Source: Candidatus Neomarinimicrobiota bacterium
GTDB taxonomy: Bacteria; Fidelibacterota; Marinisomatia; Marinisomatales; S15-B10
NCBI GenBank assembly: GCA_030743815.1
Contig: JASLRT010000023.1
Span: 1-54,013, forward strand
Direction of reading: 5' to 3'
DNA: 54,013 bases
The position numbers were made by a program, and so were the translations under genes. Numbering within the stretch: position 1 is the stretch's first letter; each line of letters starts with the position of its first letter. Positions 49,682-51,103 of the stretch are shown piece by piece. A model generated the notes under the pieces. It had not been told where the DNA came from. It made no database searches and saw only the letters and a program-made list of their open reading frames with translations.

Positions 49682-49724
49682 TTACTCTACTCACGCTAAA
49701 GAAATAACAAATTTAGATGATTTT

Positions 49725-49749
49725 CCCTTCCTCGGAGTCCTCGGGAGGG
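49725..49749 (-). other. Hairpin in the mreB leader
   Basis: CCCTTCC (49725-49731) pairs with GGGAGGG (49743-49749), seven pairs with one G-T wobble when read as plus-strand RNA; the minus-strand transcript has CCCTCCC with GGAAGGG (one mismatch-type A-C position). No T-run follows in the mreB direction. It lies about 45-70 bases upstream of mreB and could influence leader structure or act as a weak boundary element. Confidence 0.35.
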
Positions 49750-49753
49750 TTAT

Positions 49754-49782
49754 AAGTTACTGTCCGGCAAACTACTAGTCAA
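49754..49782 (-). promoter_or_regulatory. Candidate sigma-70-type promoter of the mreB operon
   Basis: On the minus strand TTGACT (49782-49777) is followed after 17 bases by TAACTT (49759-49754). The -35 box is close to consensus; the -10 box is weak. It lies about 70 bases before mreB. Sequence-pattern evidence only. Confidence 0.3.
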
Positions 49783-49935
49783 TCTGAATCTAAGCAATCA
49801 TGTGTATATCACAAGCGAGATGAGAAACCAAACTGGAAATGAGAATTTTTCAATGGAAGTAATTTTTATCTGAATAGAATAAATTCGACCAGTAATCAAT
49901 CCACTGAAAGTAGGTAAAACTAATGGAGGAACCAA

Positions 49936-50289
49936 ATGAACGACATTACCAACTATCATAACCCGCGCTGATCAAAGATCCGGGAATCCGTGCAGATTCT
50001 CAGAGATAAGGGAGTTGAGCCTCAGATCGTGGAGTATCTTAAGACGACGCCTGACGCGACTACCCTGAAGAAGCTGGCTTCAATGATGGGTCTCCGCCCC
50101 AAGGATTTTATCCGCAGGCGTGAGGTCGATTTCAAAGAGCTTGGACTGAAGGATAAACTGGAAGACGACGCTGAACTTTTTCGACAGATGGTAGCACATC
50201 CAAAGCTGATGGAGCGCCCCATTGCAATAAAGGGAGATCAGGTAGTTCTCGGGCGGCCGCCAGATAGAGTGCTTGAGCTACTGCATTGA
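49936..50289 (+). CDS. arsC: ArsC-family arsenate reductase, candidate selenoprotein (in-frame UGA at catalytic Cys)
   Basis: A 117-residue ArsC-family reductase if the TGA at 49969-49971 is read as selenocysteine. The ATG at 49936 has a strong site GGAGGA (49925-49930) five bases before it. From there the frame reads YHNPR-U-SKIRES and continues unbroken to the stop at 50289. The TGA is codon 12, where E. coli ArsC has its catalytic Cys12. His8 and the arginines Arg60, Arg94 (MERPI) and Arg107 (LGRPP) fall at the same numbers as in E. coli ArsC, so nothing else is missing. A hairpin fitting a bacterial SECIS follows the TGA. A conventional call would begin at GTG 49990 and lose the active site. 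The alternative is a pseudogene with a point mutation or a base error. It starts a plus-strand group with a TauE-like permease. Confidence 0.8.
49972..50001 (+). promoter_or_regulatory. Candidate bacterial SECIS hairpin
   Basis: Just after the UGA, GGGAATC (49982-49988) pairs with GATTCTC (49995-50001): seven pairs, one G-U. The six-base apical loop CGTGCA (49989-49994) has G in its second position. The loop begins 17 bases after the UGA, inside the 16-37 range of published bacterial SECIS rules. A short lower stem ATC/GAT may extend it past an internal loop. The structure was folded by eye. Confidence 0.6.
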
Positions 50290-50332
50290 AAGATGTGACA
50301 GGTTGGTAACGACCTGAAAGATCAACTCCCTG

Positions 50333-51103
50333 ATGGAATACATAATCGTTTCACTTGTCGCTCTGTTGGTATCGGGGTTAACGCTCTTCTCGGGCTTTGG
50401 TCTCGGTTCTCTCCTCATGCCCGTCATGGCCATTTTCTTTCCCATGCAGGTAGCGATCGTAGCAACTGCCGTTGTTCACCTGGCCAACAACTTTTTCAAA
50501 CTGTCACTCTTTGGCAAATATCGTCGCGGCGACGTAGTGGTAAAATTCGGGATGCCAGCAATCGTTTTTGCCGCCGCCGGGGCTTGGATTCTAACACGCA
50601 TCTCAGGTCTTCCTCCCGTTGCAACTTACACCTGGTTCGCCAGACAGTTCGAAGTAGAATGGGTGAAACTTATGATCGCCGCTCTCATAGTCATCTTCGC
50701 ATTGATTGAGGTGCTGCCAATGTTTCGAAAACTCGAGTTCAGCGTCAGCCTGTTGCCGTTGGGTGGCGTTCTAAGCGGCCTGTTCGGCGGACTTTCCGGA
50801 CACCAGGGAGCCATGAGAAGTGCCTTCCTCGCTAACACAGGACTTACTAAGGAACAGTTCATCGGTACGGGTGTCACCATCGCTTGCATGGTTGATATCA
50901 CCCGTCTCACCGTCTACGGCGTTAATTTCTCTATCCTAGAATTAGAAAATAGTAAACTTGTCCTGGCCGGATCTCTGGCGGCATTTCTCGGTGCTTACCT
51001 CGGAAAGCGAATGGTTGAGAAAGTGACTATGATTCATATCCAGAGATTTGTTGCCATATCATTAATCGTCCTGAGTATTGCATTAGGGTCGGGTCTTATT
51101 TAA
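50333..51103 (+). CDS. TauE/SafE-family membrane permease
   Basis: A 256-residue membrane protein of the TauE/SafE (sulfite exporter-like) family. Its paired halves open with VSGLTLFSGFGLGSLLMPVMAI and GGVLSGLFGGLSGHQGAMRSAF, the glycine-rich repeat that defines the family. About eight helices are predicted by eye. Members move sulfite, sulfoacetate or other organic or inorganic anions; the substrate here is unknown. It follows the ArsC gene by 43 bases on the same strand, so an anion linked to thiol or arsenic chemistry is possible but unproven. Confidence 0.88.
   Translation: MEYIIVSLVALLVSGLTLFSGFGLGSLLMPVMAIFFPMQVAIVATAVVHLANNFFKLSLFGKYRRGDVVVKFGMPAIVFAAAGAWILTRISGLPPVATYTWFARQFEVEWVKLMIAALIVIFALIEVLPMFRKLEFSVSLLPLGGVLSGLFGGLSGHQGAMRSAFLANTGLTKEQFIGTGVTIACMVDITRLTVYGVNFSILELENSKLVLAGSLAAFLGAYLGKRMVEKVTMIHIQRFVAISLIVLSIALGSGLI

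Follow-up and report, generated by a model that had tools for sequence, protein, structure and literature searches.

A predicted selenocysteine-containing arsenate reductase (ArsC) in Marinimicrobia, with SECIS hairpins at differing positions among its relatives

A glutaredoxin-type arsenate reductase gene (arsC) in a Marinimicrobia MAG very probably encodes a selenocysteine (Sec)-containing enzyme of the glutaredoxin-coupled type, with an in-frame UGA standing where the catalytic cysteine codon is expected. The gene lies near one end of a contig of 54,013 nucleotides, here called the window. The MAG itself comprises 2.11 Mb in 123 contigs and is 96.9% complete. The gene and the elements within it are listed below.

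49936..50289, + strand: predicted arsC-Sec, glutaredoxin-type arsenate reductase gene, 117 codons, codon 12 = UGA (Sec); TIGR00014, PF03960 and phmmer against PDB ArsC
49969..49971, + strand: in-frame TGA, predicted Sec codon at the catalytic Cys12 position; aligned homologs
49982..50001, + strand: bSECIS apical hairpin, stem GGGAATC (49982-49988) / GATTCTC (49995-50001), loop CGTGCA (49989-49994), 17 nt past the UGA
49990..50289, + strand: truncated 99-aa ORF from table-11 calling, its GTG start within the SECIS loop; ORF calling

The arsC frame opens with an ATG at 49936, a few bases 3′ of a GGAGG Shine-Dalgarno sequence, and is broken solely by the TGA at 49969, as an earlier, sequence-only reading of the window had described. 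After this codon 12, 105 open codons lead to a terminal TGA at 50287-50289. Translation with TGA as U yields 117 residues (MNDITNYHNPRUSKIRESVQ...), including the stretch YHNPRUSK. The product aligns end to end (1-116/1-116) with E. coli R773 ArsC (PDB 1jzw and 1i9d), which confirms that codon 12 occupies the place of Cys12 and that His8, Arg60, Arg94 and Arg107 fall at the same numbers, all of which had been proposed from the letters alone along with the length of 117 residues. The expected loss of the active site in standard annotation is also borne out, with table-11 calling returning at this locus only the 99-aa ORF that starts at GTG 49990. An Rfam search of 49700-50400 gave no match, and a consensus search found neither a sigma-70-like promoter nor a terminator. 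A scan of the window for an in-frame TGA combined with a long frame and a hairpin returned five more sites, and the residues printed for these show no recognisable active-site context.

Homologs of this gene alternate between Sec and Cys at a single codon. The gene is present in 80 of the 245 genomes of the phylum at E<=1e-15, with an internal TGA in 66 and without one in 14. A codon alignment of 82 rows, made up of 81 Marinimicrobia sequences (including one weaker match) and one from Aquimarina, has TGA at codon 12 in 67 rows and TGC or TGT in 15, Aquimarina among the latter, and nothing else; restricted to the 81 Marinimicrobia rows, the split is 67 to 14. No other disruption of the frame occurs at that column, which shows the alternation of TGA with TGC/TGT that the sequence-only reading had proposed looking for. 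Every one of the 82 rows has Arg60, and Arg94 and Arg107 never vary where a residue is readable. Between the window and its genus mate, codons 33-116 have a dN of 0.11 and a dS of 0.58, so purifying selection acts on the part that follows the UGA. A scan of genomic contigs for homologs returned only the genus mate and the Aquimarina Cys form, while plasmid homologs all share <60% identity and those with annotation are ordinary arsC.

The window protein is filed under ArsC/TIGR00014. It scores 130.7 bits against TIGR00014 (arsenate reductase, glutaredoxin; an equivalog model with a cut-off of 106.05) and 60.6 bits against PF03960, and its best phmmer match among PDB ArsC entries has an E-value of 9.6e-28. 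Related models fit less well: the Spx/MgsR model scores 42.9, below its cut-off of 75.05, the PRK10853 ArsC-family reductase model scores 16.4, below its cut-off of 121, and NF041106 is not among the NCBIfam matches. Relative to E. coli R773 ArsC, the window protein has Sec12 for Cys12, Ile15 for Ser15 and a different operon context. It resembles the UxxS Sec-ArsC proteins described in 2005 (later ‘ArsC 1’) in protein family, Sec at the catalytic position, a SECIS just downstream and marine origin; it differs from them in its Marinimicrobia host, in a SECIS register that varies among its relatives and in having Ile in place of Ser three residues past Sec. The UxxS motif is therefore not kept (U-S-K-I, or UxxI). 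Residue 15 (ATC) is Ile in the window protein and Ser in every other readable homolog, including the genus mate and 65 of the 67 Sec rows (one row being unreadable), and the Ile may be genuine or may stem from a MAG error. On the grounds of synteny and of its 79% identity to a UxxS copy, the protein is classed as an ortholog of the UxxS family, though not a strict UxxS protein. The UxxC arsenate reductase-like selenoprotein (‘ArsC 2’ of the GOS survey; NF041106) also belongs to the ArsC superfamily; the window protein lacks its resolving Cys three residues after Sec.

Arsenate reduction is the best assignment for this predicted selenoenzyme, given the equivalog match, the conserved arginines and an Acr3 arsenite efflux gene located elsewhere in the genome. 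During translation, SelB with Sec-tRNA(Sec) would bind the hairpin, with its loop beginning 17 nt past the UGA, and decode codon 12 as Sec. In a scheme carried over from E. coli ArsC, the Sec12 selenolate, in the role of Cys12, would then attack arsenate bound by three arginines (Arg60, Arg94 and Arg107), and a small thiol or glutaredoxin would resolve the Sec12 intermediate and release arsenite for export by the Acr3 pump. We infer Sec insertion at UGA 12, arsenate as the true substrate and the electron donor. Two genes flank arsC in the window.

50333..51103, + strand: TauE/SafE-type exporter downstream of arsC, a possible functional partner; PF01925, 69.7 bits
48665..49681, - strand: mreB, divergent upstream neighbour that marks the conserved gene location; PF06723, 426.7 bits

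A TauE/SafE-type exporter gene follows arsC in several genera; most f1 and f5 family members share the arsC-tauE pairing, and at locus L106 the TauE/SafE gene (L106:3227-3997) overlaps the end of arsC by a few bases. The mreB gene is likewise a neighbour at the loci of families f1 and f5, among them L072, a Cys form, and the other flank of these loci mostly holds a TauE/SafE exporter, a GNAT gene or an aldehyde dehydrogenase gene. No ars operon surrounds arsC, and neither arsR nor acr3 lies beside it in the window or at the f1 and f5 loci. The glutathione (GSH) synthetase PF02955 was not found in the 97% complete MAG. The absence of an ars operon and of a detectable GSH synthetase leaves the substrate and donor of this ArsC uncertain. 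The same observations lend some weight to a different function, in which the ArsC-fold selenoprotein acts mainly as a Sec-dependent thiol-disulfide or sulfur/selenium oxyanion redox enzyme together with the adjacent TauE/SafE exporter, and the functions of Sec-ArsC proteins are so far based on bioinformatics only (PMC13188914). We regard this alternative as unlikely, since the protein passes the TIGR00014 cut-off while falling short of those of the Spx/MgsR and PRK10853 models, its three arginines are conserved and acr3 is present in the genome.

The genome encodes a Grx4-type monothiol glutaredoxin. A second thiol-redox selenoprotein candidate, a glutaredoxin with an in-frame TGA in its active site (WUPHC), lies at L115:1492-1710 (G000 contig C78); a hairpin follows its TGA, and the gene is cut off by the contig end. 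This candidate Sec-glutaredoxin could serve as the donor for Sec-ArsC.

The genome also holds the full machinery for Sec decoding, which the sequence-only reading had proposed looking for. All four components are present: SelA (446.8 bits), SelB (351 bits, its gene adjoining selA), SelD (402.7 bits) and a tRNA-Sec, the product of selC (67.8 bits, anticodon TCA). SelD (L012:1330-2445, - strand) is itself a predicted selenoprotein, with an in-frame TGA in the context LSHGSGUACK and a strong hairpin behind it. A Sec-containing SelD is a known arrangement. Across the phylum, SelB over the cut-off was not found in five genomes with the TGA form; three of these carry tRNA-Sec, and completeness is 86% in the remaining two. 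Among the eight Cys forms of the first survey, six come from genomes with SelB over the cut-off (G007, G010, G014, G027, G048 and G069), and the remaining two genomes (G026 and G090) have tRNA-Sec. Cys forms thus occur mostly in Sec-decoding genomes, indicating that the exchange of TGA and Cys codons happens at the gene and does not follow from loss of the machinery. The ArsC homolog at locus L072 (G007, same family as the window genome) lies beside mreB at the syntenic place, has Cys (TGT), lacks a SECIS and belongs to a genome with SelB; a change from Sec to Cys in place is likely there.

The hairpin just past the UGA matches the published bSECIS model, which specifies a loop of 3-9 nt with a G within its first two positions, a stem of 4-16 bp, a distance of 16-37 nt from the UGA and an MFE <= -7.5 (PMC13188914). 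In the window, 7 bp enclose a 6-nt loop (CGUGCA) at a spacing of 17 nt; the UGA and the next 40 nt together reach -8.8 kcal/mol in a fold that includes this hairpin, and the 20-nt hairpin alone reaches -6.0. The single-sequence fold of the first 62 nt carries no excess stability (z 0.26) and is uninformative, so the evidence had to be comparative. Synonymous shuffling of the window gene alone gives p 0.022 when this particular hairpin is required and 0.10 when any hairpin of the kind counts. Across relatives, at least five pairs form at the 17-nt register in 43 of the 67 Sec genes. Covariation at this register, computed on 43 distinct sequences without the second hairpin form described below, scores 0.383 against 0.228 when shuffled, a value reached in 0 of 500 shuffles. 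The co-changing pairs are T-A/G-C, A-T/G-C and G-C/A-T, and sliding the partner strand lowers the score. Genes with Cys show no excess stem at this place. The check on bSECIS and covariation proposed from the letters therefore came out in favour of a selenoprotein, with a covarying hairpin in Sec forms that is absent from Cys forms.

Against this evidence, an explanation of the locus as a pseudogene or assembly error, with the TGA a nonsense mutation or a miscalled TGC or TGT and only the 99-aa GTG ORF or nothing being made, has next to no probability. TGA is one base away from either Cys codon, the window derives from a MAG and Ile15 is odd; yet the same TGA occurs in 66 other Marinimicrobia genomes, which makes a base-call error at codon 12 very unlikely, and dS well above dN after the TGA, the covarying SECIS and the full Sec machinery all speak against it. 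The 67:15 pattern of TGA and Cys codons in 82 homologs practically excludes both a nonsense mutation and a base-call error, upholding the earlier argument that the TGA did not arise by chance. Any read-through would yield a full-length protein, but decoding of the UGA as another residue, for example Trp through a changed genetic code or a suppressor tRNA, is rejected as a negligible prospect, since homologs without TGA have only Cys codons in its place, the genome has a genuine tRNA-Sec (anticodon TCA) and window genes such as mreB and tauE read well under table 11. The reading of this gene as an ArsC selenoprotein is accordingly supported, and, of the refuting observations named in the sequence-only reading, none turned up among those tested.

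The position of the SECIS varies within the family. Nineteen genes, mainly from family f8 and genus g11, lack the 17-nt hairpin and carry a second form, whose loop (CGUGA) is placed 30 nt past the UGA; this hairpin is 99% paired and covaries (0/500 shuffles).

Family f8 and genus g11 loci with the 30-nt SECIS (those with TGA): L035-L037, L040, L043, L045-L047, L049-L051, L054, L055, L057, L059, L063, L071, L081, L090, L094

A third position is found at L084, where a 7-bp hairpin has its loop 22 nt after the UGA. The hairpin also leaves a mark on the protein. Codon 19 is the GTG of the 17-nt loop, and Val19 is present in 46 of the 67 Sec rows versus Leu in 14 of the 15 Cys rows, suggesting that the SECIS dictates an enzyme residue. 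Within one gene family and one phylum, registers of 17, 22 and 30 nt thus lie in different reading phase, the two main forms share the loop start CGUG, and the signal would impose Val19 (GTG) in the 17-nt form or Arg-Asp (CGTGAC) in the 30-nt form. We lean, with moderate confidence, towards an account in which the SECIS migrated while Sec was kept, or Sec was gained repeatedly from Cys, and in which the Sec glutaredoxin is the likely donor. A protein tree built without the SECIS columns (92 columns) has many open forks and does not fix how many times Sec was gained or the SECIS shifted. The AU test rejects neither a single clade of the 30-nt form (p 0.24) nor a single clade of Cys forms (p 0.17).

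Sec-containing ArsC is a known kind of protein, and the sequence-only reading was correct that metagenomic surveys had reported it (PMC1088965, PMC2398784, PMC13188914). A 2005 study of the Sargasso Sea described 14 sequences of UxxS selenoprotein arsenate reductases (PMC1088965), and the GOS survey of 2008 reported 77 selenoprotein arsenate reductase sequences (‘ArsC 1’, pfam03960) as well as the arsenate reductase-like UxxC group ‘ArsC 2’ (PMC2398784). A 2026 review places Sec-ArsC (TIGR00014) among selenoproteins whose functions are largely uncharacterized and also lists the arsenate reductase-like NF041106 (PMC13188914). No paper linking Sec-ArsC to Marinimicrobia was found in the open-licence literature. 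The fresh detail is the SECIS at differing positions in related species. Less expected were the three registers in one family, the Sec glutaredoxin in the genome, the failure to find GSH synthetase and the TauE/SafE neighbour. The analysis places a known, mostly environmental selenoprotein family in Marinimicrobia, a marine phylum that is widespread and uncultured. Counts of arsenic genes that rely on table-11 calls would miss this arsC, whose called product of 99 aa lacks the active site. The family has 67 Sec members, 15 Cys members and SECIS elements at three registers, and is a natural data set on the movement of a recoding signal and on the constraints that such a signal places on the protein containing it.
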